NCBI GenBank assembly: GCA_947470895.1
Contig: CANIVF010000001.1
Location: forward strand, 1-64,000
Reading direction: 5' to 3'
DNA: 64,000 bases
Source: Bacteroidota bacterium
Lineage (GTDB): Bacteria; Bacteroidota; Bacteroidia; Cytophagales; Cyclobacteriaceae
Positions 2,845-36,331 of this stretch are shown in pieces. The notes beneath the pieces are model-generated. The model was not told where the DNA came from. It saw nothing but the letters and a program-made list of their open reading frames with translations, and ran no database searches. The position numbers and the translations under genes were made by a program. Position 1 is the first letter of the stretch. Every line of letters starts with the position of its first letter.

Positions 2845-3432
2845 TTAGATCAACTCTTCGCCAACCCAAAAAGAACGAGCTGAGGTAAAACGCACTATTC
2901 CATCTTTTTCAACAAGATAACTTCCGGAAGCAAACTCAGTAAATTCCGTTTTCATTTCTTCGGGTAAAAGATACAATGTTGCCTTTGCGGGCAACCATTT
3001 TTCAAAGTGACCTTTTTTAATACAAATCCACAACTTATTATCGGCAAAGGCTTCTATATCCAAATTAGAAAATGATTCTATTTTATTTAGATCATGATGG
3101 CTACTTAACAAACAATTTACTGCACCGGCCAGTGATGCGATCAGGAAGTAAAAAGCAGTTTCGAGTGGTTCGTCATCTGGATTGTATGAGATAAACCGAA
3201 TTGGAGTTTGCTCAGCTAATTTTTCTCTCCAATAAGTCATCTCAGCAATAGGCGTGATCACGACATCTACTTTTATACCCCAGGCAGTCACCACCTCAAC
3301 CTCTTGAGCAAGCACAACCACCGTGGGCATCTATTCCAGTAGTTCCTGAATTTTTTCGAAGGAAATGGCATGAGCATCAGCAATCAACAAAGCTGGCTCC
3401 TGATTTTCGCGTACGATGTGATGACTGGACAT
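2845..3432 (-). pseudogene. Thiamine-pyrophosphokinase-like gene interrupted by in-frame TAG
   Basis: One frame runs from ATG at 3432 to the stop at 2845 but holds a TAG at 3333–3331 after 33 codons. The first part (MSSHHIVRENQEPALLIADA…) and the part after the TAG (PTVVVLAQ…WGIKVDVV…) match the two halves of the N-terminal region of thiamine-pyrophosphokinase-like proteins I recall from Bacteroidota. The residues after VDVV read ITPIAE, where a true kinase has an Asp-rich GD-x-D metal motif, so catalysis looks lost as well. The TAG is followed directly by ATG, so a 161-residue protein (2845–3330) could be made by reinitiation. It is last in the amidoligase cluster, one base after the stop of the first ATP-grasp gene. 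It could be a pseudogene, a two-part gene or a sequence error. Confidence 0.65.
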
Positions 3433-4629
3433 TTACTGCTCAACGAAACAAACTGAACCGCCTACCCACGTTTTATCTTTATTGAATTTCACACCAATCA
3501 TTTCACCCCGACTGAGACGGGCTAGGTTGGTGATTAATTCAGGACGAGCTGCACCTTTATCCCATAGGAAAAGTAAACGGATTTCAGTTTTAACTAATCC
3601 ATCGGGAGCTTGTATTACAGGTTCGTAGTGAACTTTACGTTGCAGCAAGTAATTCTTTCGTTCGTGAAATGGAATGCTAAGAATGTCATTTTCCTGTATG
3701 TTGAAAACAACTCCGCTTCCTGAAAAAGAGAACAGTGGTTTCAATACATAATTTTCAAGATCGGTCGGCAACGTGGTGTAGTCACTTAGAAATTTACATT
3801 CGGGCACAGCATCACTATGTAGGAATGGCATCGTGTATTTGCTGATGTAGTAAAACCAATTGGGATGCCCAGCCCATTCCACATCAACATCTTCGGTTAG
3901 ATGAAAATTAGTTTTTAGTTCTGGCTTGCCAAGTAATTCATCAAAGATTACACGATTGTAAATGCGGTGAACCGGAATTTCGACTTCGTTCTTTTTATAG
4001 AACAGTTTTCTGTTTCGTAAAATCAAATCGCCAAGTTGTATCGCATCGATTTTTAAATGATGCTTCGTCACCAGAAAATCGATGTTTGTATTTTGTTTCA
4101 GTGGATCAATCTCCAACAAGATGACGTTCTCGGGATTGTGATCTCCTACAATTGCCTTTCTCAGCCGAATCCAATATTGTTCAGAGCTTTCACCAAAATG
4201 AAATCCTAAATGATCCGGAATCTGATAGTGCTCTTTGAACTTATTACCTAAAAAATCCTGATAGCCGAACAAAGAAGGGAATCCTTGCATTTCAATCAAT
4301 CGGGGAATTAATTCCTTGCTGCCTTCTTCGGTGCATATGGCAAAATCCAATGCTAAAAAAAGAGTGTGATCATCTTCGTTGGGAACAAATACCTGTGCAG
4401 GAATGGCACCCGACATGAGTGTTTTGAAATCGGGTCGAACTATAAAATCGATGATTTCATTCGCGGCTTTGAAAAGTTTATTTCGAAAATCTTTACCTAC
4501 AAAAACAGGACTTTCAGCAACGCGAAAAGGTATCTTATAGTTAAATGTTTTATCCAGGTCATTCAAAAAACCATAATACTTCTCTTCTGAAAACTGCTGA
4601 TTAAATAGTTGTCGGGCAGAAGTGATCAT
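3433..4629 (-). CDS. ATP-grasp-type amidoligase, unusual family
   Basis: A 398-residue cytosolic protein with no signal peptide. Near residues 294–310 is YVLKPLFSFSGSGVVF, with Lys297 in the place of the ATP-binding lysine and a Gly/Ser loop after it, as in glutathionylspermidine-synthase-like and other ATP-grasp ligases. A C-terminal block near 362–392 (ITNLARLSRGEMIGV…) holds Arg and acidic residues suited to phosphate and Mg binding. Proteins of this kind join a carboxylate to an amine through an acyl phosphate. Its start overlaps the end of the amidotransferase gene by four bases (ATGA), which implies translational coupling. The substrate is unknown. ATP-grasp membership is moderately sure, as the N-terminal 250 residues are not familiar to me. 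Confidence 0.7.
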   Translation of the reverse strand: MITSARQLFNQQFSEEKYYGFLNDLDKTFNYKIPFRVAESPVFVGKDFRNKLFKAANEIIDFIVRPDFKTLMSGAIPAQVFVPNEDDHTLFLALDFAICTEEGSKELIPRLIEMQGFPSLFGYQDFLGNKFKEHYQIPDHLGFHFGESSEQYWIRLRKAIVGDHNPENVILLEIDPLKQNTNIDFLVTKHHLKIDAIQLGDLILRNRKLFYKKNEVEIPVHRIYNRVIFDELLGKPELKTNFHLTEDVDVEWAGHPNWFYYISKYTMPFLHSDAVPECKFLSDYTTLPTDLENYVLKPLFSFSGSGVVFNIQENDILSIPFHERKNYLLQRKVHYEPVIQAPDGLVKTEIRLLFLWDKGAARPELITNLARLSRGEMIGVKFNKDKTWVGGSVCFVEQ

Positions 4630-5465
4630 ATTGCAAGGGAACTTAACCGATGCCCCAAAGCCGTCATTAAAAAGCGAGGTACCACCGTGGAGTACGTGAG
4701 CATGATCTTGTCAGGATCATTCAGATGATCGAGCATCTCCCAATATTTTCTTTCTCCGTGCTTCTCGATTACCAATTCTTTTTTGTCTTCGCGCAACAAA
4801 TACATTCGCATGCCCAATGCATCTGCTTCGGGATGAAACTGCATGCCGACAAAAGCTTCATCAAAGCGAATAGCCATCGCTGCTCTTTCTAAATCTATAT
4901 GTGGACGATATTTTTCGATGAAAAGTAATGCGCCTCCATTTTCTTCAATTTTTTCCATGTTTACTTGCGTAATCTGATAATCACGCGAATCAACAGCCCA
5001 CATCGGGTCTCCTAATGATTGAAACAAAAGATCATGATGGCCTTCAAATGTTTTATGCACAGGCATTACACCAAAGGAAGTTGACTTTCTTTTAGAAATT
5101 ATGCCATAACCGTAATACCTGCAAAAGATCTGAAAGCTATGACAAATCAATAATACATGTTTCTTTTGATCAGGATGTTGTTGATTATGGATTTTGATAT
5201 TTTCCATCAACCCAAAGAATTTACTCTCCCACAAACTTCCAGCACTATCCAACGGACTACCCGGCCCACCAGAAGAAATATAAACGTCAAAACTAAGATC
5301 GGCCACTTCGGATTTTTGTCTCACATCGAAGAATTCATAGGTCACCTTCATGTGGCAATCGACTTCAAATTTTTTGATGAGTTGGCGTAAACCGCGCATG
5401 CCTTCATTGGCGACTCCTTCGTAGAGATCGAGAATGGCAATTCGTATGTGATTTTCTGAGGACAA
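4626..5465 (-). CDS. Class I glutamine amidotransferase-like protein
   Basis: A 279-residue cytosolic protein. SSGGPGSP at 64–71 is the oxyanion-hole loop of class I glutaminase domains. LLICHSFQ holds the nucleophile Cys108, in a CHS form of the more usual GxCxGxQ. MQFHPEAD supplies His211 and Glu213. The triad is therefore complete and the enzyme should free ammonia from glutamine, or hydrolyse a gamma-glutamyl bond as the related peptidases do. About 60 residues follow the triad, a longer tail than in guaA-type domains. It sits between the GCS2-type ligase (42 bases upstream) and the ATP-grasp ligase (four-base overlap), so supplying ammonia to, or trimming a product of, these ligases is the natural reading. 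The true substrate is unknown. Confidence 0.82.
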   Translation of the reverse strand: MSSENHIRIAILDLYEGVANEGMRGLRQLIKKFEVDCHMKVTYEFFDVRQKSEVADLSFDVYISSGGPGSPLDSAGSLWESKFFGLMENIKIHNQQHPDQKKHVLLICHSFQIFCRYYGYGIISKRKSTSFGVMPVHKTFEGHHDLLFQSLGDPMWAVDSRDYQITQVNMEKIEENGGALLFIEKYRPHIDLERAAMAIRFDEAFVGMQFHPEADALGMRMYLLREDKKELVIEKHGERKYWEMLDHLNDPDKIMLTYSTVVPRFLMTALGHRLSSLAI

Positions 5466-5507
5466 CTTTCGATGGTTATGTAAGTATTCGATAATAATTA
5501 CGCAAAG

Positions 5508-6605
5508 TTAAACTCCTTCCATAGTTTCACTCAAAATAAAGTCCACTACTTTCTCAAGACTTCCTGTTTGTTGAAATACAGCAAGTTGTCTATCGGCCCC
5601 TGTGCCTCTTTCTAAAATTTTATGAACATAATTGATGGCATGGCGGCTACCAAGATCATCGACTACATCATCAATAAAATCTAATAATTCAAGAATCAGT
5701 ATGCGAGTATCCAATTCCGACAGCTTACCGAAATCAATCATTTTGCCATCCAACCCATAGCGCGATGCCCTCCATTTATTTTCGTTGATGAGGGCACGTG
5801 TATACATGATAAAACTCATGTTCTGCAATCTCAACTTATACAGTTTTACAACCAATGCCTGAAATACCGCGGTGATCGCGATGGTCTCATCAACGCGCAT
5901 GGGCACATCACAAATTCTGAATTCGATAGTATCAAAAAATGGGTGCACACGCACATCCCACCATATTTTCTTTGCATTGTCAATGCAATTGGTTTGGATG
6001 AGTAAGTTCACATAGTTTTTGAAATCATCCCAACCATTAAAATGATCAGGAATACCAGTGCGTGGAAATTTATCAAACACTTTGGTGCGAAAAGATTTGA
6101 ACCCGGTATTACGACCTTCCCAGAAAGGCGAGTTGCAGGAGAGCGCGTATACGTGTGGTAAAAAATAGCGGATCGTATTCATAATGTGTATCGCCATATT
6201 TTTATCAGCGATACCCACGTGCACATGCAAACCAAAAATTAAATTGGATCGTGCAGCCTCCTGCATCTCTTGTACGATTTCGTCATAGCGAGGATTGGGT
6301 GTAATCAATTGTTTGCTCCAGTGCGAGAACGGATGTGTACCGGCAGCACCGATACGTAGATTCAATGATCCAGCTACTTCTGAAACGACCTTTCGTAATC
6401 CCCGAATTTCCTGATTGGCCTGGTCCACATCTTTACAGATGCCCGTGCCAACCTCTACCACGGCCTGATGCATCTCCGCCTTCACACTATCTTTGATGAT
6501 ATGCGAAGCCAACTCCACTATTTTTTGATCATGAGATGTTAACTCACGGGTATGCGGGTCAACTACCATGTACTCCTCTTCAACTCCCAGTGTGAACTTT
6601 TCCAT
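5508..6605 (-). CDS. Carboxylate-amine ligase, GCS2/YbdK family
   Basis: A 365-residue protein, the usual length for the YbdK branch of glutamate-cysteine ligase type 2. GVEEEY at residues 7–12 is the family's opening acidic motif, and GLHVHVGI near 125–132 is its metal and nucleotide-binding strand. EFRICDVPM and RASRYGLDG are further conserved blocks. Family members form an amide bond between a carboxylate and an amine using ATP; weak gamma-glutamylcysteine formation is known for E. coli YbdK, but the real substrate of most members is not. It lies 15 bases after the second ATP-grasp gene and 42 bases before the amidotransferase. I infer one step in the assembly of an amide-linked small molecule. 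Confidence 0.88.
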   Translation of the reverse strand: MEKFTLGVEEEYMVVDPHTRELTSHDQKIVELASHIIKDSVKAEMHQAVVEVGTGICKDVDQANQEIRGLRKVVSEVAGSLNLRIGAAGTHPFSHWSKQLITPNPRYDEIVQEMQEAARSNLIFGLHVHVGIADKNMAIHIMNTIRYFLPHVYALSCNSPFWEGRNTGFKSFRTKVFDKFPRTGIPDHFNGWDDFKNYVNLLIQTNCIDNAKKIWWDVRVHPFFDTIEFRICDVPMRVDETIAITAVFQALVVKLYKLRLQNMSFIMYTRALINENKWRASRYGLDGKMIDFGKLSELDTRILILELLDFIDDVVDDLGSRHAINYVHKILERGTGADRQLAVFQQTGSLEKVVDFILSETMEGV

Positions 6606-6620
6606 AGACGATTTTTCTTT

Positions 6621-7646
6621 TCAGGGGACTATTTTTTTTGGAGCCTTAGGCTTTGTTACTTTTTTAACTCGTTCTTTTACTTCTCCTTTGGCAACTTTTG
6701 CATTCGCACTTACAGCATTGGTTACAAACGTGCCCCAGGTGAGGTTATCTTTTCCAGGCTTTTGTTCCTGCGCTCGTTCAACGGCAATCTTTGCGGAAGT
6801 CTCCACAACCCAGTCAAAATTTTCTTGCCCTACTGAATACACATCAGCATCGGGTGCGGGATTACAAAAATCAATGGCGTAGGGAATACCATCGCGCACG
6901 GCCATCTCAACGGTGTTAAAATCATAGCCCAATGCATAACACAGATCCAATACGTAGTCGTTCACTTTCTTTAACAACTTTTCAGAAACGGGACCATTGT
7001 TGCTTTGATATCTTAAGTGATGTGGATTGCGGGGCTCATATTGCATAATGCGCACGTGCTTTCTGCCCAGGCAATAGCAACGGAAGTAGTCATCAAAAAT
7101 AATTTCTTCCTGAAGCATCATGACTAATTGATTCGTTTCGCTGTAAGCTTTGAAGAAGTCATCCTGATTATTAAGTTTATAAACACTCTTCCAGCCGCCA
7201 CCGGAATGCGGTTTCATATAGGCTGGCCAACCAATTTGTTCAAAGATTTTTTCCCAGCTTAATGGAAACTTAAGATTGCTGAATGATGCTTCACCTGTAT
7301 CGGTGGGTCGCTCATGCGATGGAAGAAGAACCGTCTTTGGAACGGGTACATCAAGCTTTACGGCAAGTGCATTATTAAAGAATTTTTCATCAGCACTCCA
7401 CCAAAACGGATTGTTGATTACGGCCGTTCCTGAAATGGCAGCGTTCTTAAGATAAGCACGGTAGAACGGAACATCCTGCGAAATACGATCGATGATCACC
7501 GCATAATCGGTAGGCTCACCTTGTTGCACCATATCGATCAGCACAGGTTCTGCTTTGATATCTTTCAAACCCATCTTGTTAATACGGTCTACAAATGCTT
7601 CGGGGAAGGAGCGCTCCATGCCGTGCAGTATTCCTATCTTTTTCAT
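6621..7646 (-). CDS. ATP-grasp ligase with Lys-rich C-terminal tail
   Basis: A 341-residue RimK-like ATP-grasp protein. AYMKPHSGGGWKSV holds the ATP-binding Lys145 and the flexible Gly-rich loop. FNTVEMAV (Glu247) and YAIDFCNPAPD (Asp259, Asn262) are the Mg-binding residues. The first ~80 residues form an alpha/beta N-terminal domain like the pre-ATP-grasp fold. The final 25 residues are rich in Lys (KVAKGEVKERVKKV…PKKIVP) and look disordered, perhaps binding nucleic acid, membrane or an acidic partner. It lies four bases after the alpha/beta-hydrolase gene and 15 bases before the GCS2-type ligase. The family makes amide bonds; the substrate here is unknown. Confidence 0.82.
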   Translation of the reverse strand: MKKIGILHGMERSFPEAFVDRINKMGLKDIKAEPVLIDMVQQGEPTDYAVIIDRISQDVPFYRAYLKNAAISGTAVINNPFWWSADEKFFNNALAVKLDVPVPKTVLLPSHERPTDTGEASFSNLKFPLSWEKIFEQIGWPAYMKPHSGGGWKSVYKLNNQDDFFKAYSETNQLVMMLQEEIIFDDYFRCYCLGRKHVRIMQYEPRNPHHLRYQSNNGPVSEKLLKKVNDYVLDLCYALGYDFNTVEMAVRDGIPYAIDFCNPAPDADVYSVGQENFDWVVETSAKIAVERAQEQKPGKDNLTWGTFVTNAVSANAKVAKGEVKERVKKVTKPKAPKKIVP

Positions 7647-7650
7647 ATCT

Positions 7651-8580
7651 CTAGTTAGTTTGGTTCTTTATGTCAATAATAATTTTTTGAAATTTTGCAG
7701 GCTCTGTCAGATGTGGATTGTGAGCAGAATTGATAAACCAATATAGTTTTTTTTCCTGGCAATCAACCTGCTTGTAATAAGATTCGGCCAGTGAAAAATG
7801 GGTTTGATAATCGTTGCTGCCGATTAGAAAATAGATAGGACAATTTAATTCTGGAGCAAACTTGATGAAATTTGTCTTGGAAGCTTCGTTGAAAATAGAT
7901 AACCAAGTAGTTGCCCATTGATCAACTTTGGTGCGGGTCGGTGTGGATGAACCCATCAACTTACTAAGCCACTTTCTATGATAGAATAATTGCTCGCCAT
8001 TTTTGAATGGAACTTCAACCCTGCTTAGTTCGGCTATTGCTTCTGTATTATTTTCTTTCATTGCTTTGTCTTGCATCGCTTTCAATGAAAGTCTTTCGCT
8101 CTCGAGTTGGTTTATCATGGGGCTCATCGCGAAATATCCCTTCAAAAGATCTGGTCTTTCTGTGGCAACTCGCAATCCTAAAGATCCACCCCACGAATGA
8201 CCTACCAGATAAATTTTTTCTTGGGAGAATTTTGATGAAAGATAGGTAATCACCTCAATGGCATCATCGATGAAAATAGAAACAGTTAGTGGTTCGGGTG
8301 ATTTATTCAGGCTAGCAGTCTTCCCACTCTCGCGCTGGTCCCAATGCACAACGATAAAATGTTTCTGCAGTTCCTGTGTAAAACGATCGGCATAACTCAT
8401 GGCCGAATTGCCCGGGCCACCATGAAGGAAAAGTAGAACAGGAGCCTGATCGTGTTCGCCTTGAAATTTTATCCATTGTTTGATGCCTCTGATTTCTACC
8501 GCTTCACTGCCATCAATCTTGAATCCTGTCGCTATCTGTGGCAACAGGATAATTAGAATCAATAAGCAGCGTGTAATCAT
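7651..8580 (-). CDS. Exported alpha/beta-hydrolase, proline-iminopeptidase-like
   Basis: I start at the ATG at 8580, giving 309 residues and a good signal peptide (MITRCLLILIILLPQIATG); the 15 codons open upstream overlap the previous gene. LFLHGGPGNS near residue 51 is the oxyanion loop typical of proline iminopeptidases, HWDQRESGKT follows the usual DQRGxGxS strand, and VGHSWGGS holds nucleophile Ser129. GSNDYQT and INSAHNPH offer the Asp and His. The family removes an N-terminal residue (often Pro) or hydrolyses esters and amides. Its export signal sets it apart from the cytosolic ligases, suggesting it acts on an outgoing product or an imported substrate. It is two bases after the esterase gene. 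Confidence 0.8.
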   Translation of the reverse strand: MITRCLLILIILLPQIATGFKIDGSEAVEIRGIKQWIKFQGEHDQAPVLLFLHGGPGNSAMSYADRFTQELQKHFIVVHWDQRESGKTASLNKSPEPLTVSIFIDDAIEVITYLSSKFSQEKIYLVGHSWGGSLGLRVATERPDLLKGYFAMSPMINQLESERLSLKAMQDKAMKENNTEAIAELSRVEVPFKNGEQLFYHRKWLSKLMGSSTPTRTKVDQWATTWLSIFNEASKTNFIKFAPELNCPIYFLIGSNDYQTHFSLAESYYKQVDCQEKKLYWFINSAHNPHLTEPAKFQKIIIDIKNQTN

Positions 8581-8582
8581 GT

Positions 8583-9293
8583 TTATCGGATCAAAGACAA
8601 GTAATGAGGAAACATTTGTTTCCACACGGGCCAGTCGTGTTCAGCGTCATGGCGCACATCAAGCCAATGGTTGATCCTCTTGTTTCGTAAAATTTCTGCC
8701 ATTTTTTCGTTGGCACTCCAGCACATATCTTTTGTTCCCGTGCCTAGTACGACAAACATATCGTGAAAGAAATCACTTTGGGCGTTAGGTATAAAATCCA
8801 TGGGGTTATTGAAGTACACCTGGTCATCATAATAGCCATCTACTTGATCTATGATATCGAATGCAGCGCCCATGTTGAAAACATATTTCACCACATCCGG
8901 ATGCTTGAATGCAAATGTGGTGGCGTGATATCCTCCAAAACTACAGCCAGCAGTGGCCACACGGCCCACTCCGGTTTCGCGCTGTGCCAGAGGCACTAGT
9001 TCGTGATACAACATCTGATCATACCAATGGTGATTTTTTGCACGATCGGTCGGATGAATACTTTTGTTATACCAACTCACTTCATCAATGCCATCAACAC
9101 AATAAATTTTTACGAGGCCTTCATCTAAAAACCAATTGACACTATCTATTAATTTAAAGTCTTTGTTTTCATAATAATGTCCCATCGAGGTGGGAAACAA
9201 GATGACCGGATAGCCACGTGTGCCAAAGGCAAGGACTTCTATGTCGCGGTTCAAACTGGGCGAATACCATTTATGATAATGTTCGTGTGCCAT
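8583..9293 (-). CDS. Esterase-family alpha/beta-hydrolase, first gene of the cluster
   Basis: A 236-residue protein of the putative esterase family (feruloyl-esterase/antigen-85-like fold). There is no signal peptide, so it should be cytosolic. TAGCSFGGYHA holds nucleophile Ser118 in a GxSxG elbow, and a C-terminal HDAEHDWPVW supplies the His. The length is at the short end for the family. It begins the run of seven minus-strand genes down to 2845, all within 42 bases of each other or overlapping, and stands head-to-head with another esterase gene starting near 9389. It may release or trim an acyl group on the product of the neighbouring ligases; that is inference. Confidence 0.82.
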   Translation of the reverse strand: MAHEHYHKWYSPSLNRDIEVLAFGTRGYPVILFPTSMGHYYENKDFKLIDSVNWFLDEGLVKIYCVDGIDEVSWYNKSIHPTDRAKNHHWYDQMLYHELVPLAQRETGVGRVATAGCSFGGYHATTFAFKHPDVVKYVFNMGAAFDIIDQVDGYYDDQVYFNNPMDFIPNAQSDFFHDMFVVLGTGTKDMCWSANEKMAEILRNKRINHWLDVRHDAEHDWPVWKQMFPHYLSLIR

Positions 9294-9388
9294 ATCAATT
9301 CAATTTATAAACCTCTATTTTTGTCCTCTAATTCAGAGAAAAGTCGGAATAAAGCGGCTTAAAAATCAATTTATCGTTAAAAAAATTA

Positions 9389-10213
9389 TTGTCCTTGCCA
9401 TCTACCCCACATTACTATCTCGAAAAACTGACTGACATCCATTCCAAACTACTTGGAAGGGACACCGTGGTGGATATTTTTCTCCCATTTCAATATGAAA
9501 AGGAAGGCAAGCAGTATCCTTTACTTATCTTAAATGATGGTCAGGATAGTGAGGCTATTGATTTAAAATCCACCCTCGAAAAGCTAACTCTGAGCAAAGA
9601 CATTAACGATGTGATTGTGGTAGGTGTACATGCAGGTGACCGCATGCACGAGTATGGTGTTGCCAGCAAGGAGGATTATCTTGGTCGTGGCTCAAAAGCT
9701 AAAAATTATACCCGGTTTATCATGACCGAGTTGATTCCCTATCTTCAATATCGATATCCGATTTCAAGATTACCCGAGGAGAATTGTATTGCTGGCTTTT
9801 CGTTGGGTGGACTTTCCGCTTTGGATATTGCTTATCACAATCCCGATTATTTTGGAAAAGTAGGTGCCTTTAGTGGTTCATTCTGGTGGCGTAAGCGCGA
9901 TATGAAAAGTAAATTCTATTCTGATCATTATGATCGCATCATGCATCAGGCGGTGCGAAGAGGAAAATTTAAGCCGGGATTAAAATTCTGGTTTCAAACC
10001 GGACTGAAAGATGAGAATCACGACCGTAATAAAAATGGCGTGATTGATTCTATTGACGACACCCTTGATCTTATTGTGGAACTAACCAAAAAAGGATATC
10101 GCCCTTTTCATGATATTCAATATCTTGAACTCGAACACGGAGAACACAATCTTAAAACCTGGAAAGAAGCTATACCCCATTTTTTGAAATGGGCGTTTCA
10201 AAACAAGAAATGA
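9389..10213 (+). CDS. Esterase-family hydrolase with EF-hand-like insertion
   Basis: About 274 residues. No ATG is near the start; TTG at 9389 or 9395 both serve, the second removing two residues. The fold is the putative esterase family: CIAGFSLGGLSALD holds nucleophile Ser138 and LEHGEHNLKTW near the end supplies the His. Residues 212–223 (DRNKNGVIDSID) match an EF-hand calcium loop with ligands at positions 1, 3, 5, 9 and 12, inserted before the last part of the domain. No signal peptide is seen. It is divergent from the amidoligase operon, 95 bases away, and related to that operon's first gene, so it probably belongs to the same system. Confidence 0.82.
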   Translation: MSLPSTPHYYLEKLTDIHSKLLGRDTVVDIFLPFQYEKEGKQYPLLILNDGQDSEAIDLKSTLEKLTLSKDINDVIVVGVHAGDRMHEYGVASKEDYLGRGSKAKNYTRFIMTELIPYLQYRYPISRLPEENCIAGFSLGGLSALDIAYHNPDYFGKVGAFSGSFWWRKRDMKSKFYSDHYDRIMHQAVRRGKFKPGLKFWFQTGLKDENHDRNKNGVIDSIDDTLDLIVELTKKGYRPFHDIQYLELEHGEHNLKTWKEAIPHFLKWAFQNKK

Positions 10214-14823: not shown

Positions 14824-16062
14824 TCATTTCTTAAAGTTCAACACACACTTCTCGATAATATCACAACACTCATGAATTTGCTCTTCGGTAATCACTAATG
14901 GTGGAGCGAGTCGAATAATATTGCCGTGCGTGGGCTTGGCTAACAGTCCATGCTCAGCAAACTTCAAACACAGGTTCCAGGCTGTTTCGCTTTCGGGTGA
15001 ATCGTTGATTATGATTGCGTTAAGCAAACCTTTACCACGAACCAGTTTGATTAAATCTGATTTTACTTTCAGCGCATTCATCCGCTGGCGGAATACCGTC
15101 CCCAGCTTTTCGGCATTGGCTGCAAGGTTTTCATCTTTCACCACCTGCAACGCTTCCATCACCACAGCAGCGGCCATCGGATTGCCACCAAAAGTAGAAC
15201 CATGCTCACCCGGCTTGATCACTAACATAATGTCATCATCAGCCAGTACTACTGAAATTGGTAATACGCCTCCCGACAGCGCTTTACCTAAAATCAATAA
15301 ATCGGGACGTACGCCTTCATGATCGGAAGCCAACATTTTACCCGTGCGTGCAATACCAGTTTGAATCTCATCCATCATCAACAACACGTTATGCTTCTTG
15401 CATAAATCGGCTGCTGCCTTCAGGTATCCATATTTCGGAACATACACACCTGCCTCTCCTTGAATGGGTTCAATCCAAAGCCCGCATACGTTGGGATTTT
15501 TTAAAGCTTTTTCAATGGCTTCAATATTGTCGTAATCGATAATCTCAAAGCCTGGCATGAATGGACCAAAACCATTTCGGGATGATGGATCGGTTGAAGC
15601 AGAAATGATTGACGTTGTTCTGCCGTGAAAATTTTTCTTTACGGCAACAATCACCGCTTCATTATCAGGAATTCCTTTTTTGGTATAACCCCATTTACGG
15701 GCAAGTTTAATCGCGGTTTCATTTGCTTCCGCACCGCTATTCATAAACAGAGCCTTATTATATCCAAACGTTTCGCAAACGTATTTTTCAGCTATACCCA
15801 ATTTATCATTGTAGAAGGCGCGTGATGTCAGTGTTAGTTCCTTAGCTTGTTCAATCAATGCATTGATGATGCGCGGATGACAATGTCCCTGGTTAACGGC
15901 ACTATATGCAGAAAGAAAATCGAAGTAACGTTTACCCTCCACGTCCCATAAAAACACACCTTCACCTTTGTTCAATACAACTTCAAGCGGATGGTAGTTG
16001 TGGGCACCATACTTCTCTTCTAACCCGATCGCCTCGTGGCTTGATGTAATTGTGGAACCCAT
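14824..16062 (-). CDS. rocD: Ornithine–oxo-acid aminotransferase
   Basis: A 412-residue class III PLP-dependent aminotransferase, the usual length for RocD. I choose the ATG at 16062 ([20 protein letters not shown]); a TTG five codons earlier is the alternative. [44 protein letters not shown] and [13 protein letters not shown] (with the Schiff-base Lys) are diagnostic. It moves the delta-amino group of ornithine to 2-oxoglutarate, giving glutamate semialdehyde for proline or glutamate. No arginase or other arginine gene is nearby. A TAACTTTG element sits just upstream on this strand. Confidence 0.93.
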
Positions 16063-16084
16063 ATATTTGAAATTCAATGAGTTT

Positions 16085-31703: not shown

Positions 31704-33143
31704 ATGAAAAGGAGGAAAAAAACCGGAGCTGTCATTTTCATTGCGTTTTTTTTCCTTTTTGGATGCATTCCTTCCCTTGAAGATAATTCTTTTCGAAAAG
31801 AACCTGAAATTGAACTTGACCTCGATGCTGTCCGACAACGAGGCTATCTGACCGCTGTGGTGGACAACACCTCCATTAGTTATTTCATTTATAAAGGCAG
31901 AACGATGGGGTTTGAGTATGAATTGCTTAAACGACTTACCGATCATTTAAAGGTCAGTCTTAAAATAAGATTAGTGGCAGGAATTGAGCAAGCCATTGAT
32001 TTACTTAACAAAGGTCAGGGTGACATTCTGGCTTTTCCACTGGCTATTACAGAAGAGCGAAAGGAGTATCTATCGTTTACTGATCCTCACTTTAACACAT
32101 TTCAGGTTTTGATTCAAAAGAAACCAGCCAACTGGCGCATGCAACCGCCCCAGGTGTTAGATAAAAAGTTGGTGCGCGATACCACTCAACTTATTGGCAA
32201 AGAGGTTTATGTAATGAAAGGTTCCTCTTTTAGTGAGCGCATGAAAGAGATATCAAAAAACCTTGGTGGAAGAATTAAAGTTGTAGAAGACAGTGCATCT
32301 GCCGAAACCGAATCGCTGATCAGAAAAGTAGCAACAGGAGAAATCAAATACACTGTTTCAGATAAGACCATTGCCATGGTGAACTCATCTTATTATCCTA
32401 ACCTTGATATCAATACAGTATTGAGCGATCCCCAAGAGATAGCATGGGGAGTGAGAAGTAATTCACCAAACTTACTGCAGGCTATTAATGAATGGTTGAA
32501 AGGAGCAAAACGAAAAGGTGTGTTTAATGTGATCTATAACAAGTACTTTAAAAATCCCCGGTCCTTACTTGCACGAACCACAAGTGATTACTCCTCTCAT
32601 GCAGGAACTAAACTTTCACCCTTCGATGATCAACTAAAAGCTGGTGCGAAACAGATTGGTTGGGATTGGCGACTGATTGCATCCATGGTGTATCAGGAAT
32701 CAAATTTTGATCCTAGGGTTGAATCATGGGCTGGTGCCATCGGGCTGATGCAAATTATGCCTGAGACAGGTGATTATTTTGGTGTTCAAAATTTATGGGA
32801 CCCAGCTCAGAATATTAAAGTGGGAATCAAATTTTTGAAATTCCTGGATAAGCAATGGGCTAAAACGGTACCAGATTCAATCGAGCGAACGAAGTTTGTA
32901 CTCGCTTCTTACAATGTTGGTCTCTCACATGTCATTGATGCGCAAAAACTATCCAGAAAACATGGTAAGGACCCCACCCGGTGGGAAGAGAACGTAGAGT
33001 ATTTCTTACTTAAGAAATCTGAACCAAAATACTATCGCGACCCTGTTGTTGTAGTTGGTTATTGCCGCTGCGTTGGGCCAGTTAATTATGTGAAGCAAGT
33101 GCTTCAGCGCTTTGATGAATATAAACTTCGAATTGACTCCTAG
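31704..33143 (+). CDS. MltF-like lytic transglycosylase lipoprotein
   Basis: A 479-residue protein from the ATG at 31704 (MKRRKKTGAVIFIAFFFLFGC, with the lipidated Cys at residue 21). Residues ~40–280 form a periplasmic solute-binding domain of the type 3 family (GYLTAVVDNTSISYF…, GFEYELLKRLTDHL…). Residues ~310–470 are a Slt-type transglycosylase: SMVYQESNFDPRVESWAGAI with the catalytic Glu, then GLMQIMPETGDYFG and FVLASYNVG. This two-domain plan is that of MltF, which cleaves peptidoglycan under control of a ligand-binding module. It ends four bases within reach of the converging kmo gene. Confidence 0.9.
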   Translation: MKRRKKTGAVIFIAFFFLFGCIPSLEDNSFRKEPEIELDLDAVRQRGYLTAVVDNTSISYFIYKGRTMGFEYELLKRLTDHLKVSLKIRLVAGIEQAIDLLNKGQGDILAFPLAITEERKEYLSFTDPHFNTFQVLIQKKPANWRMQPPQVLDKKLVRDTTQLIGKEVYVMKGSSFSERMKEISKNLGGRIKVVEDSASAETESLIRKVATGEIKYTVSDKTIAMVNSSYYPNLDINTVLSDPQEIAWGVRSNSPNLLQAINEWLKGAKRKGVFNVIYNKYFKNPRSLLARTTSDYSSHAGTKLSPFDDQLKAGAKQIGWDWRLIASMVYQESNFDPRVESWAGAIGLMQIMPETGDYFGVQNLWDPAQNIKVGIKFLKFLDKQWAKTVPDSIERTKFVLASYNVGLSHVIDAQKLSRKHGKDPTRWEENVEYFLLKKSEPKYYRDPVVVVGYCRCVGPVNYVKQVLQRFDEYKLRIDS

Positions 33144-34480
33144 CCATTGCTGAGCGATTCAATAATTGATTTAAAATCTAATGACTCCCAATTTTTTTCG
33201 ATGCCAGGTCTTTTCATCACCTCGTCCATGATCTTCTTTTGTTTCTGCCCGGTTTCATAAGCCATTGAATAAGGCATGTTATCATGAAAGGTTACCATAG
33301 AGTAGAGTGGTATCCATTGCGCGGGATAAAGTTGATGAAGCTTAGCTTCTATTTTTTTTCTTAGTAAGAAGTCAGCATCGGCAACCAGATCACGCATCTC
33401 TATAAAATTATCCAACGCCAGTTGGGCTATGGCATCGGCATCTTTTTTTCGTTCATGCTGAAATTGCGGAAGCACTTTTTTCCACTGATCATCATACCGG
33501 TTTAATAACTCATTTAAGATTCTACAATCTTCAAACCCGGCATTCATACCTTGGCCAAAGAAAGGCACTATAGCATGAGCCGCATCACCAAGTAATAGCG
33601 TGTTATTTTTTATCCACGGATAGCAACATACCGTTACTAATGATGAAGTTGGATTTGAGTTATAATCTTCCAATAATGAGGGCATCAACTTTACTGCATC
33701 GGGGAAAGTGCTTTCAAAAAACATACTAACCTCAGCATCGGTCTTTAATTGGTTGAAAGACGGGCTACCTTCAAAGGGAAAAAATAGAGTACAGGTAAAA
33801 CTTCCATCGGGATTGGGCAAAGCAATCATCATGAAACTTTCGCGCGGCCAGATGTGCAATGCGTTTTTCTCGAGTTGAAAAGAACCGGCAGCTCCCGGTG
33901 GAATATGAAGTTCTTTATAGCCATGATCAATATAATCCTGAGAGTAATCGAAGCGATCGGTGAATTGCAGTGCACCACGCACGGCAGAAAATGCACCATC
34001 AGCACCAATGATTAAATCATAATTTCTTACGACTGAGGACTTCCCATCATCGATTATTAAAATTGTTTTTTCAAGATCAACTTTTGTTATGCGCTGCTCA
34101 AAATGAAAATCCACACCCAACTCTTCGGCCTTGTTCATGAGAACAATATTTAAAGCACTGCGCGAAACAGAGTTTATGAATTGGCCTTCTTTTCCATATT
34201 GCAAAAATGAAAGTTCACCAGCCCTGTTGTGCATCACGCGGCCATGCATGGGGATGGCTACTTTTTTCATTTCTTCAGCTAGGCCAACTTCATCTAATGC
34301 CCGAATACCTCTGTTACTTAAAGCGAGATTAATAGAGCGGCCACCGACATAATTACTTTGTCGCATGTCGCCCCTTCGCTCGAATACGCTGATTTTGTAT
34401 CCGCGTTTGGCGAGGTAAATAGAAAGCAATGAGCCCACTAATCCGGCTCCGCAAATGGCAATATGTTTGGAAGAGTTCAT
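33140..34480 (-). CDS. kmo: Kynurenine 3-monooxygenase
   Basis: A 446-residue FAD-dependent aromatic hydroxylase. HIAICGAGLVGSLLSIYLAK is the FAD-binding GxGxxG fold, RSINLALSNRGIRALDEVGL is typical of kynurenine monooxygenases, and LLLGDAAHAIVPFFGQGMNA is the second FAD motif. It hydroxylates kynurenine to 3-hydroxykynurenine using NADPH and oxygen. It is last in a four-gene group with kynU two bases upstream, then haaO and a zinc-ribbon gene. The 3' end overlaps the converging transglycosylase gene by four bases. A C-terminal region is present as in the full-length family, probably for membrane or substrate contact. Confidence 0.93.
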   Translation of the reverse strand: MNSSKHIAICGAGLVGSLLSIYLAKRGYKISVFERRGDMRQSNYVGGRSINLALSNRGIRALDEVGLAEEMKKVAIPMHGRVMHNRAGELSFLQYGKEGQFINSVSRSALNIVLMNKAEELGVDFHFEQRITKVDLEKTILIIDDGKSSVVRNYDLIIGADGAFSAVRGALQFTDRFDYSQDYIDHGYKELHIPPGAAGSFQLEKNALHIWPRESFMMIALPNPDGSFTCTLFFPFEGSPSFNQLKTDAEVSMFFESTFPDAVKLMPSLLEDYNSNPTSSLVTVCCYPWIKNNTLLLGDAAHAIVPFFGQGMNAGFEDCRILNELLNRYDDQWKKVLPQFQHERKKDADAIAQLALDNFIEMRDLVADADFLLRKKIEAKLHQLYPAQWIPLYSMVTFHDNMPYSMAYETGQKQKKIMDEVMKRPGIEKNWESLDFKSIIESLSNG

Positions 34481-34482
34481 CT

Positions 34483-35754
34483 TTATTTTCTGAATGTGCG
34501 CTTAAAGATTTCTACAAACCGGAATACATCTTCAAATGAATTATATAATGGAACAGGAGCAATGCGAATGACAGCAGGCTCGCGCCAATCGGCTATTACG
34601 CCTCCTTTAGTGAGTGATGTGAAAGCTTTCTTTCCGTTACGCTTCATTAAGATAGACAGTTGGCATCCTCGTTCTTCAACATTTGAATTGGTAATGATGG
34701 TAAAGTATTCGGTATAATTTTCTGTCGACTTCAATAGATATTCCAGAAATCCTGTAAGCAACATGCTTTTCTTTCTAAGCGTTTTAATGCCGGCTTCTTC
34801 AAAGATTTGCAACGAAGTCAGGTGAACGGCACCGGTAATCACCGGAAAGTTGGAGAGTTGCCAGCCATCGGCACCGGGCATAGGAATAAATCCTTTCTTC
34901 ATCTGAAAGCGATCTTTCTCATGATGTCCCCACCAACCGGCCAGGCGCACGAGGTTCGGATTGTTGGCGTGCTTCTCATGAACAAAAGCACCGGCAATTC
35001 CTCCGGGGCCAGAGTTTAAATATTTATAGCTGCACCACACCGCAAAGTCAACGTTATGTTTGTGCAATGAAAGAGGCACATTACCAATGGCATGTGCCAG
35101 ATCAAATCCAACAGAAGCACCAACGCGATGACCAGCTTCCGTGATTGCTTTGATGTTGAAGAACTGACCAGAATAGTATTGCACTGCACCAAAAATGACT
35201 AACGCCAGTTGATCACCGTGGTGCCCAATCGCTTTAAGAATATCTTCTTCCCGAAGCGTATGTTCACCTGATCGTGGCTTTAATTCAATTAATCCTTCAT
35301 CTGGTTTGATGTTGTGAAGTTTAAGTTGCGACTCAAACGCATATTGATCTGAAGGAAATGCACCGGCCTCAGTCAGTATTTTAAAACGTGATGATGTAGG
35401 CCTATAGAAACTAGTCATCATCAAATGCAGGTTCACTGTAAGTTGGTTCATAGCCACCACTTCTAGTGGTTTGGCTCCCACTAAATCAGCGAGCGCCTTC
35501 TTACTATATTTATGATAATACAACCACGGATGTTTTGCATGGAAGTGACCTTCCACCCCCAATGCCGCCCAATCCGACAGTTCCTGATTGATATAAGACT
35601 TCGCTGATTTGGGTTGAAGTCCCAGCGAATTTCCTGTAAAGTAAAAAGCGGTTTTTCCTTTTACTTTCGGCAGATGGAATTTTTGACGAAATGATTTTAG
35701 CGGATCAGCTTTGTCAAGCTTCTTTGCAAAGCTCAACGAGTTTTCAAAATTCAT
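34483..35754 (-). CDS. kynU: Kynureninase
   Basis: A 423-residue PLP enzyme of the class V aminotransferase fold. GNSLGLQPKSA is the N-terminal motif of kynureninases, FDLAHAIGN gives the PLP-binding Asp and AVWCSYKYLNSGPGGIAGAF holds the Schiff-base Lys. It cleaves 3-hydroxykynurenine to 3-hydroxyanthranilate and alanine (and kynurenine to anthranilate). It lies two bases before kmo and 46 bases after haaO, giving a compact operon for the middle of the pathway. Confidence 0.94.
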   Translation of the reverse strand: MNFENSLSFAKKLDKADPLKSFRQKFHLPKVKGKTAFYFTGNSLGLQPKSAKSYINQELSDWAALGVEGHFHAKHPWLYYHKYSKKALADLVGAKPLEVVAMNQLTVNLHLMMTSFYRPTSSRFKILTEAGAFPSDQYAFESQLKLHNIKPDEGLIELKPRSGEHTLREEDILKAIGHHGDQLALVIFGAVQYYSGQFFNIKAITEAGHRVGASVGFDLAHAIGNVPLSLHKHNVDFAVWCSYKYLNSGPGGIAGAFVHEKHANNPNLVRLAGWWGHHEKDRFQMKKGFIPMPGADGWQLSNFPVITGAVHLTSLQIFEEAGIKTLRKKSMLLTGFLEYLLKSTENYTEYFTIITNSNVEERGCQLSILMKRNGKKAFTSLTKGGVIADWREPAVIRIAPVPLYNSFEDVFRFVEIFKRTFRK

Positions 35755-35800
35755 GAAGCAAGATAATCAATACGTGATAAGGTTATTACCTAAAGTAGGT

Positions 35801-36331
35801 TTAAACAAAACGCGGATCTGTTTCCATGACTGTACCGCACTTTTTGCAGGTGCGTAATTCTGTTGATCCATAGAATTCGCGGAAGCGTGGAAGAAAGTCC
35901 TTTTCGATATTATCGAGGTGAAAACGATATTCATGCAACTTGTTATTGCAGTTATCGCAATACCATTGCAAGCCATCCAATACATTTTGCAGAGGGCGTT
36001 TACATTCAATCACCAATCCGACAGATCCTGCAGGGCGCTCCGGCCGATGAGGAACATTAGCTGGCAACAAAAACATTTCACCTTCTTTGATTTCGATATC
36101 TACTGGCTTTCCATCTTCCTGGATGCGCACATTGATATTTCCTTCAAGTTGATAGAAGAGTTCTTCGGTTTCATTGAAGTGAAAATCTTTTCGTGCGTTG
36201 GGGCCGCCAACAATCATCACGATGTAGTCACCAGCATCGGCATATAAATTTTTGTTTCCGACAGGAGGCTTTAGTAAGTCTCTGTTTTCGGTGATCCAGT
36301 TTTTAAGATTGAACGGTCTGCGAATAGCCAT
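35801..36331 (-). CDS. haaO: 3-hydroxyanthranilate 3,4-dioxygenase
   Basis: A 176-residue cupin. FHFNETEELFYQLEGNINVR supplies the iron ligands His and Glu, and LPANVPHRPERP the second His. The C-terminal part has CDNCNN and CKKCGTVM, the rubredoxin-like second iron site of bacterial enzymes. It opens 3-hydroxyanthranilate to 2-amino-3-carboxymuconate semialdehyde, the branch point to quinolinate (NAD) or to further breakdown. It lies between the zinc-ribbon gene (28 bases) and kynU (46 bases). Confidence 0.95.
   Translation of the reverse strand: MAIRRPFNLKNWITENRDLLKPPVGNKNLYADAGDYIVMIVGGPNARKDFHFNETEELFYQLEGNINVRIQEDGKPVDIEIKEGEMFLLPANVPHRPERPAGSVGLVIECKRPLQNVLDGLQWYCDNCNNKLHEYRFHLDNIEKDFLPRFREFYGSTELRTCKKCGTVMETDPRFV

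Follow-up and report, generated by a model that had tools for sequence, protein, structure and literature searches.

We strongly infer from sequence comparison that five genes of Bacteroidota take part in one small-molecule pathway. They code for two ATP-grasp ligases (GRASP341 and GRASP398), a GCS2/YbdK-type carboxylate-amine ligase (GCS2), a protein of the class I glutamine-amidotransferase fold (GAT1), and a serine hydrolase (EST236). Their order is conserved across the phylum and they co-occur even when dispersed, in agreement with the preliminary description of this DNA, which had taken the genes for one functional set.

Layout of the locus and families of its proteins

An ORF check of the window (the whole stretch of 64,000 nucleotides analyzed) confirms the positions of all eight open reading frames proposed previously. 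The core genes lie on the minus strand in the order EST236 (8583..9293), GRASP341 (6621..7646), GCS2 (5508..6605), GAT1 (4626..5465), and GRASP398 (3433..4629), often with a divergently transcribed esterase beside them, here EST274 (9389..10213, plus strand). Two more genes share the minus strand: ABH324 (7651..8580), coding for an alpha/beta hydrolase with an N-terminus that is hydrophobic by eye, and a gene resembling thiamine pyrophosphokinase (TPK-like; 2845..3432). Between the first six genes there are gaps of 4, 15, and 42 bases, one overlap of 4 bases, and an overlap of 43 bases between EST236 and ABH324, which vanishes when ABH324 starts at the later ATG (8580) and not at GTG 8625, also a possible start. 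The tight spacing initially described (gaps or overlaps of at most 42 bases) holds for these six genes but not for the TPK-like ORF, which begins 102 bases past the ligase. The first six genes of the operon leave no room for a precursor gene, which argues against a RiPP or graspetide. Seven genes had been proposed as the system; the core consists of only five, as ABH324 and the TPK-like gene are local additions, each present in 6 of 68 loci. Both are genus-level extras; ABH324 is found in 6 of 14 regions of the same genus.

All three ligases belong to amide-bond-forming superfamilies, as had been proposed, on the basis of Pfam and NCBIfam for GCS2 and of structure models for the other two. GCS2 is a clear case: it matches PF04107 (3e-65, 220.9 bits, cut-off 21) and NF010039 (532.1 bits, cut-off 371), and is a clear homolog of the YbdK structure 1r8g (2.3e-62). 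The Mg/ATP motif of GCS2-type ligases, GhExE (described in PMC2588565), is present as GVEEE at residues 7–11, and G7, E9, and E11 are at least 90% conserved in an alignment of 30 rows. The ATP-grasp assignment of the other two rests on the models, sequence matches being weak or absent. GRASP341 (341 aa) has only matches below cut-off: R2K_2 (0.0054), LysX (3.2e-6), and the RimK family (1.4e-5; TIGR00768 in NCBIfam, 24.6 bits for a cut-off of 143.4). Its model (pLDDT 79.7) has 463 PDB matches at E ≤ 0.001, the best 50 of which are ATP-grasp ligases or synapsin, and it resembles RimK with RpsF (5zk6), LysX/ArgX with LysW (5k2m, target TM 0.75), and Ddl. As modeled, GRASP341 is an ATP-grasp protein of the Ddl/RimK/LysX fold. 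GRASP398 (398 aa) has no Pfam or NCBIfam match at E ≤ 0.1, and among ligases its profile matches only YgiC in the PDB (E = 0.036). Its model (pLDDT 91.8) gives 15 Foldseek matches in the PDB at E ≤ 0.001: glutathione synthetases and similar proteins, GspS-like proteins, YgiC/YjfC, and Cp1B. The yeast glutathione synthetase with gamma-Glu-Cys (1.6e-14), YgiC (4.5e-11), and GspS (7.3e-11) are among them. On this model, GRASP398 is an ATP-grasp protein of the eukaryotic glutathione synthetase/GspS fold group.

GAT1 matches the Pfam GATase family (PF00117, 1e-8, 35.5 bits, cut-off 22.8), and its putative catalytic triad, C108, H211, and E213, is invariant in all 30 aligned GATase-fold proteins, in line with the complete triad reported earlier. 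The nucleophile of class I glutaminases usually lies in a GxCxG elbow. In GAT1 the motif is ICHSF, with C108-H109-S110 invariant, and its glutaminase activity is therefore doubtful. The best PDB match of its profile, 2vdj (2.2e-5), pointed to an acyltransferase like the homoserine O-succinyltransferase MetA, and GAT1 homologs score 20.7 and 24.1 bits against PF04204, short of its cut-off of 27. This assignment is weakened by the stronger profile scores of CarA (1.3e-10) and TrpG (4e-9) relative to MetA (2.1e-5), in an uneven comparison (pairwise hhalign E-values, a two-sequence profile for MetA, and single sequences named by eye for the five glutaminases). PyrG, GuaA, and HisH, as single sequences, gave no hhalign match, so that a MetA-like acyltransferase stays a candidate.

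The two esterases belong to PF00756. In EST236 the putative catalytic residues S118, D189, and H219 are invariant in 21 of 21 rows, S118 lying within GCSFGG in most of them. EST274 matches the family at 4.3e-34; among 68 loci it is upstream in 37, has a downstream homolog in 8, and was not found in 23. The full TPK-like frame opens at 3432, directly after the stop of GRASP398, and contains an in-frame TAG at 3331–3333 (codon 34). Eight relatives have open frames of 192–200 aa, hence the copy in the window is either broken or affected by an assembly error. Its 161-aa ORF has no Pfam match, thus no TPK_catalytic, and no TPK_catalytic match is found in the window's own genome. The TPK-like profile compared with 3 TPKs gives 0.24 (probability 0.3%), and with 12 TPKs 8e-4 (probability 24%, 93 columns). 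Among 28 examined regions where EST236 is away from the ligases, 12 have a TPK gene immediately 5′ of EST236; the 28 are a part of all such regions, one of these TPK genes is confirmed with Pfam and the others with a profile built for this analysis, and in two regions (G330 and G087) the ORF picker did not label EST236.

Distribution and gene order among Bacteroidota

We analyzed co-occurrence in 395 Bacteroidota genomes, with E cut-offs that varied among searches (1e-3, 1e-20, and 1e-60) and Fisher tests that ignore phylogeny; the association of the ligases is strong and above chance. GRASP398 and GRASP341 are both present in 110 genomes, GRASP398 only in 5, GRASP341 only in 24, and neither in 256, so that GRASP341 occurs in 110 of the 115 genomes with GRASP398, and GRASP398 in 110 of the 134 with GRASP341. 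For GRASP398 and GCS2 the corresponding numbers are 109, 6, 20, and 260, and for GRASP341 and GAT1 they are 84, 50, 2, and 259. GRASP398 is found in 26 families, and GRASP341 in every one of these. In one family (f25), all four genes occur in 6 of the 7 positives, and 11 listed members have none. GCS2 and GAT1 are not indispensable, because GCS2 is absent (E ≤ 1e-60) from four genomes of family f26 that keep GRASP341, GAT1, and GRASP398, and 15 of the 26 families that carry GRASP398 lack GAT1 (E ≤ 1e-20). GCS2 occurs alone in 11 genomes and GRASP341 in 7; in nine families GRASP341 and GAT1 are present without GRASP398. A plasmid collection contains no tblastn match (E ≤ 1e-5) for GRASP398, GRASP341, or GAT1, which argues against spread by plasmids.

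The comparison of gene order across Bacteroidota, the check named beforehand, reveals a fixed order wherever the genes are linked. The order GRASP341-GCS2-GAT1-GRASP398 is found in 36 genomes, and gene pairs within 5 kb share the strand in every genome except one (G347). Scattering, which the preliminary description held to speak against a common system, does occur: in 30 genomes GRASP341, GRASP398, and GCS2 sit on different contigs or at distances above 5 kb, as in G100, which has them on one contig at 484, 744, and 1229 kb. Yet all three ligases are still present in these genomes, and their co-occurrence despite dispersal therefore strongly supports a single pathway. EST236 is found in 29 of the 30 dispersed-ligase genomes, against 0 of 11 with GCS2 only and 1 of 17 without ligases.

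Other neighbors vary with the lineage. An M17 aminopeptidase, an ATP-grasp-like protein, and an EST274 homolog are encoded on the strand of the cluster in G069 and on the opposite strand in 8 Flavobacterium-type loci (homology checked in 1 of the 8). An M29 peptidase lies in or beside the cluster in G149, and an S10 carboxypeptidase adjoins GCS2 in G116, with a homolog in G084. Class III and class I/II aminotransferases, an amino-acid symporter, and peptidases are lineage-level neighbors; ornithine and ArgD-like aminotransferases, in 5 and 24 of 80 loci, were set aside as lineage context. By eye, we identified a short-chain dehydrogenase at 10 of 80 loci, on both sides, and a comparable one in 4 dispersed genomes, as well as an acyl-CoA-reductase-like protein (10 of 80) and a Gfo/Idh-like oxidoreductase (7 of 80).

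A putative glutathione-like relay and its alternatives

The ligases and hydrolases may form a full make-and-trim route for a small amide- or peptide-linked product, as was suggested earlier. To its most detailed version we give slightly less than an even chance: a cytosolic, glutathione-like relay would produce a glutamyl (possibly gamma-glutamyl) amide or oligopeptide, to be trimmed or recycled by a Cys-His-Glu enzyme and serine hydrolases. We infer its cytosolic site, order of steps, substrates, and gamma-glutamyl chemistry, and the roles of GAT1 and the esterases, as follows. GCS2 would activate a carboxylate and couple it to an amine or an amino acid, the gamma-carboxylate of glutamate being the likeliest; GRASP398 and GRASP341 would each attach another amino acid or amine via an acyl phosphate. 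GAT1 might then cleave or transfer the gamma-glutamyl group, supply of ammonia being less likely, and EST236, often with EST274, would act on the product by trimming, releasing, or recycling it. Certain lineages have M17 or M29 aminopeptidases or an S10 carboxypeptidase, and a further ATP-grasp-like protein, beside the cluster. Membership in the GCS2 and ATP-grasp families does not define the substrates.

The same set of proteins could also be read as a system for tagging proteins or peptides: ligases of the RimK/LysX-like and GspS/YgiC-like kinds would attach residues to a protein or carrier, to be taken off again by GAT1 and the esterase. The resemblance of GRASP341 to RimK with RpsF and to LysX/ArgX with LysW, besides Ddl, agrees with this, as does the prediction in PMC4431377 that certain ATP-grasp families modify proteins. 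One would then expect a small carrier or tag gene, but the window operon has no room for it (gaps of at most 42 bases, first six genes) and no carrier is found among recurrent neighbors (ORFs above 80 to 90 aa examined), so that tagging seems unlikely. A catabolic route analogous to PuuA/PuuD, where GCS2 would attach glutamate to an amine as a handle, further enzymes would work on the product, and GAT1 would later take the glutamate off, is improbable to a similar degree. It would account for a GS-fold ligase and a GATase-fold protein in one operon, and for neighbors such as aminotransferases, the symporter, peptidases, and the short-chain dehydrogenase, acyl-CoA-reductase-like, and Gfo/Idh-like proteins; however, each of these neighbors occurs in at most 29 of 80 loci, and two extra ATP-consuming ligases fit poorly in a breakdown route.

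A low-molecular-weight thiol replacing glutathione or bacillithiol would fit the layout of the glutathione pathway (GCS2 and a glutathione-synthetase fold) and the weak S-formylglutathione hydrolase matches of EST236 (0.019) and EST274 (3.1e-6), both far below cut-off. Yet BshC, our marker for bacillithiol, occurs in 39 of 40 ligase-bearing genomes and in 40 of 40 ligase-free ones. Being near-universal (79 of 80) and not complementary to the ligases, it gives no sign of bacillithiol replacement, and we regard a thiol as quite improbable. That these are unrelated housekeeping genes, kept together by shared ancestry alone, could be argued from Fisher tests uncorrected for phylogeny, but co-occurrence in the 30 genomes where the genes are dispersed and their joint absence within families make this very improbable indeed.

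Known systems and significance

The glutathione-like relay shares with glutathione and glutathionylspermidine biosynthesis a GS-fold ligase and an ATP-grasp protein of the glutathione-synthetase fold. It differs in the additional Ddl/RimK-fold ligase, GATase-fold protein, and PF00756 hydrolases, and in that GRASP398 has no counterpart among Pfam or NCBIfam models. A survey by Iyer and co-workers reportedly describes several linked peptide ligases with hydrolases, a similar kind of system. That survey of non-ribosomal amidoligase neighborhoods (Iyer et al. 2009, Mol BioSyst 5:1636, a reference in PMC4431377) may already list the present one; its text was outside our literature search, which returned no paper on the cluster among the matches listed. 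The dispersed co-occurrence in 395 genomes comes from the present analysis. Stand-alone ligases in series also make a small amide-linked product in the E-64 pathway, where the fungal ATP-grasp Cp1B is partnered with an ANL-family amide synthetase (PMC12568646). Cp1B (9cjn) shares the fold group of GRASP398 (1.0e-8), and the two are 12% identical where they align.

The ligases are present in about a third of the sampled genomes (115 to 134 of 395). A bolder and more doubtful proposal is that they make an undescribed glutathione-like pseudopeptide or cofactor typical of the phylum, in what we take to be mostly non-Bacteroidales Bacteroidota. Three ligases of different folds would act in series, the product would be recycled by a gamma-glutamyl hydrolase with a Cys-His-Glu triad, by serine esterases, and locally by aminopeptidases, and TPK genes would be linked to it in some way. 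If the ligases do make one compound, it would be a common metabolite of environmental Bacteroidota overlooked so far. The cluster occurs in culturable genera (Dyadobacter, Spirosoma, Hymenobacter, Flavobacterium, and Pedobacter), and these, together with the dispersed lineages, make the pathway open to ordinary genetics and metabolomics.

Composition of the cluster

In the window, seven genes lie on the minus strand from position 9293 down to 2845, in the order EST236 (a PF00756 serine hydrolase), ABH324 (an alpha/beta hydrolase), GRASP341 (a 341-aa ATP-grasp ligase), GCS2 (a carboxylate-amine ligase), GAT1 (a class I glutamine-amidotransferase-fold protein), GRASP398 (a 398-aa ATP-grasp ligase), and a thiamine-pyrophosphokinase-like (TPK-like) gene. 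EST274, a PF00756 esterase, diverges on the plus strand from the EST236 side. GCS2 clearly matches PF04107 in Pfam (3e-65) and, by profile comparison, YbdK 1r8g (2.3e-62). GRASP398 has no match at E ≤ 0.1 in Pfam or NCBIfam; structure comparison of its AlphaFold model (36-row alignment, pLDDT 91.8) gives 15 PDB matches at E ≤ 0.001, namely glutathione synthetases of yeast and plants with their relatives (best 1.6e-14), glutathionylspermidine synthetase-like proteins, YgiC/YjfC, and Cp1B. The GRASP341 model (24-row alignment, pLDDT 79.7) has the predicted Ddl/RimK/LysX ATP-grasp fold.

GAT1 exceeds the Pfam GATase cut-off, and its triad Cys108-His211-Glu213 is invariant across 30 aligned rows, but the nucleophile motif reads ICHSF. 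Its best PDB profile match is MetA; direct profile comparison places it nearer CarA and TrpG than MetA, three other glutaminases giving no match. In EST236, Ser118, Asp189, and His219 are invariant in 21 aligned rows.

The TPK-like frame opens at 3432, directly after the GRASP398 stop. In the window genome this gene of the genus is interrupted by an in-frame TAG at 3331–3333, the 161-aa ORF being the downstream portion, and relatives carry intact copies: the search turned up 16 related ORFs (one genome, present twice, supplying some of them), and the eight inspected are open across 192–200 aa. The family has weak profile similarity to thiamine pyrophosphokinases (0.24 against three TPKs; 8e-4, probability 24%, with 12), and TPK_catalytic has no match in the window's own genome. 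Of the 28 fetched regions where EST236 is away from the ligases, 12 have a TPK gene as its immediate upstream neighbour (L192, L193, L206, L211–L216, L218, L222, and L227; four families, f43, f51, f67, and f73); one of these 12 TPKs was confirmed with Pfam.

Conservation of order and of gene content

A scan of named genomes gave at least 592 relatives of GRASP398. In the best 80 of these loci, the genes present always follow the order EST236-(ABH324)-341-GCS2-GAT1-398, and 31 have exactly EST236-341-GCS2-GAT1-398 with divergent EST274. Reduced loci, of which some are truncated where a contig stops, contain GRASP398 alone (5), GAT1-398 (7), or GCS2-GAT1-398 (11). Among the 68 loci that have 7 kb or more of upstream sequence, GAT1 occurs in 65, GCS2 in 59, GRASP341 in 52, EST236 in 50, and EST274 in 45 (37 upstream, 8 downstream homologues). 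The preliminary description took all seven genes as one set; the order is indeed kept across Bacteroidota, but ABH324 and the TPK-like gene, each in only 6 of the 68 loci, fall outside it.

Of 35 same-genus genomes, 25 carry GRASP398, as do 6 of the 22 from the same order. The order 341-GCS2-GAT1-398 was found in 13 of 14 same-genus regions read, the other (L043) having GAT1-398 only; EST236 accompanies 12 of the 13, the contig ending before its position in L033. The TPK-like gene occurs in 10 of these 14 regions and ABH324 in 6. The full cluster occurs in one of six same-order regions (L047). The GAT1 of L037 lies in pieces across three reading frames, and a single TGA falls within the GRASP398 match there; L037 and L056 are apparently one genome (CP058703.1, isolate SSA6), and these are possibly assembly indels.

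Among 395 genomes drawn across the phylum, GRASP398 occurs in 115 (E ≤ 1e-3; G104 counted on 24 residues only), GRASP341 in 134 and GAT1 in 86 (both E ≤ 1e-20), and GCS2 in 129 (E ≤ 1e-60). GRASP398 and GRASP341 are both present in 110 genomes (398 only, 5; 341 only, 24; neither, 256), GRASP398 and GCS2 in 109 (6, 20, and 260), and GRASP341 and GAT1 in 84 (50, 2, and 259); Fisher p over the six pairs ranges from 6e-30 to 5e-68, uncorrected for phylogeny. The four genes stand together as 341-GCS2-GAT1-398 in 36 genomes, 15 have 341-GCS2-398 with GAT1 elsewhere, and in 30 the three ligase genes are all apart yet all present. In 80 chosen genomes (E ≤ 1e-10), EST236 occurs in 29 of the 30 of this dispersed type, 15 of 15 with linked 341-GAT1 lacking GRASP398, 5 of 7 with GRASP341 only, none of the 11 with GCS2 only, and 1 of 17 that lack all of these genes. 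GRASP341 is found in all 26 families with GRASP398. A strict gene set is nevertheless disfavoured, because f26 lacks GCS2, 15 of the 26 lack GAT1, and nine families have GRASP341 and GAT1 without GRASP398.

Possible substitute proteins and neighbours

Where GRASP398 is absent, another protein sits between GRASP341 and GAT1 in three genomes (G168, G278, and G070), and a homologue of the G168 protein just precedes GAT1 in a fourth (G239). This 450–480 aa protein (L197:6632–8059, minus strand; homologues in L199, L201, and L202, 56–61% identical to the G168 member) may be a substitute ligase; the single member scanned, that of G168, scores 24.3 bits for circularly permuted ATP-grasp, under the cut-off of 32. 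G069 has three genes ahead of EST236 on its strand, coding for an EST274 homologue, an M17 aminopeptidase, and an ATP-grasp-like protein whose Pfam matches stay under the cut-off. Homologues of all three are found next to the cluster, but on the other strand, in eight Flavobacterium-type loci (compared directly for one, L106). An M29 gene lies between GCS2 and GRASP398 in G149, and an S10 carboxypeptidase adjoins GCS2 in G116, the GCS2 neighbour in G084 being 65% identical to it.

In 24 of the best 80 loci a class III aminotransferase gene lies downstream of GRASP398 and shares its strand (e.g., L101:9236–10450, plus strand), immediately after it in about half of the 24; the one scanned is ArgD-like. 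Near the cluster, the window also has a gene that looks by eye like an ornithine aminotransferase (14824–16077, minus strand), with homologues similarly placed in five Cyclobacteriaceae or related loci. Kynurenine monooxygenase, kynureninase, and 3-hydroxyanthranilate dioxygenase genes were named by eye at 33140–36331 (minus strand).

Proposed role

Three ligases of different fold, all from carboxylate-activating superfamilies, are kept as a set together with an enzyme bearing a Cys-His-Glu triad and with a serine hydrolase. On the likeliest reading, the ligases would build an amide-linked small molecule step by step, and the two other enzymes would trim or recycle it. By analogy with glutathione, the pairing of GCS2 with a GSH-synthetase fold points to a putative gamma-glutamyl start. 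BshC is present in 79 of 80 genomes checked, a presence/absence pattern with no sign of bacillithiol replacement. A tagging system and a Puu-like catabolic route are less likely readings; the catabolic one gains some support from aminotransferases and, by eye, dehydrogenase-like genes neighbouring the cluster in some lineages.

Linked non-ribosomal amidoligases are an already known kind of system. A passage of PMC4431377 states, citing Iyer et al. 2009, that such linkages were observed earlier, and the window's neighbourhood may already be in the tables of that work; among the papers listed by our literature searches, none treats this amide-ligase cluster. What the present analysis adds is the co-occurrence of the genes despite their dispersal, the predicted GSH-synthetase fold of GRASP398, and the trimming of the set to its core.
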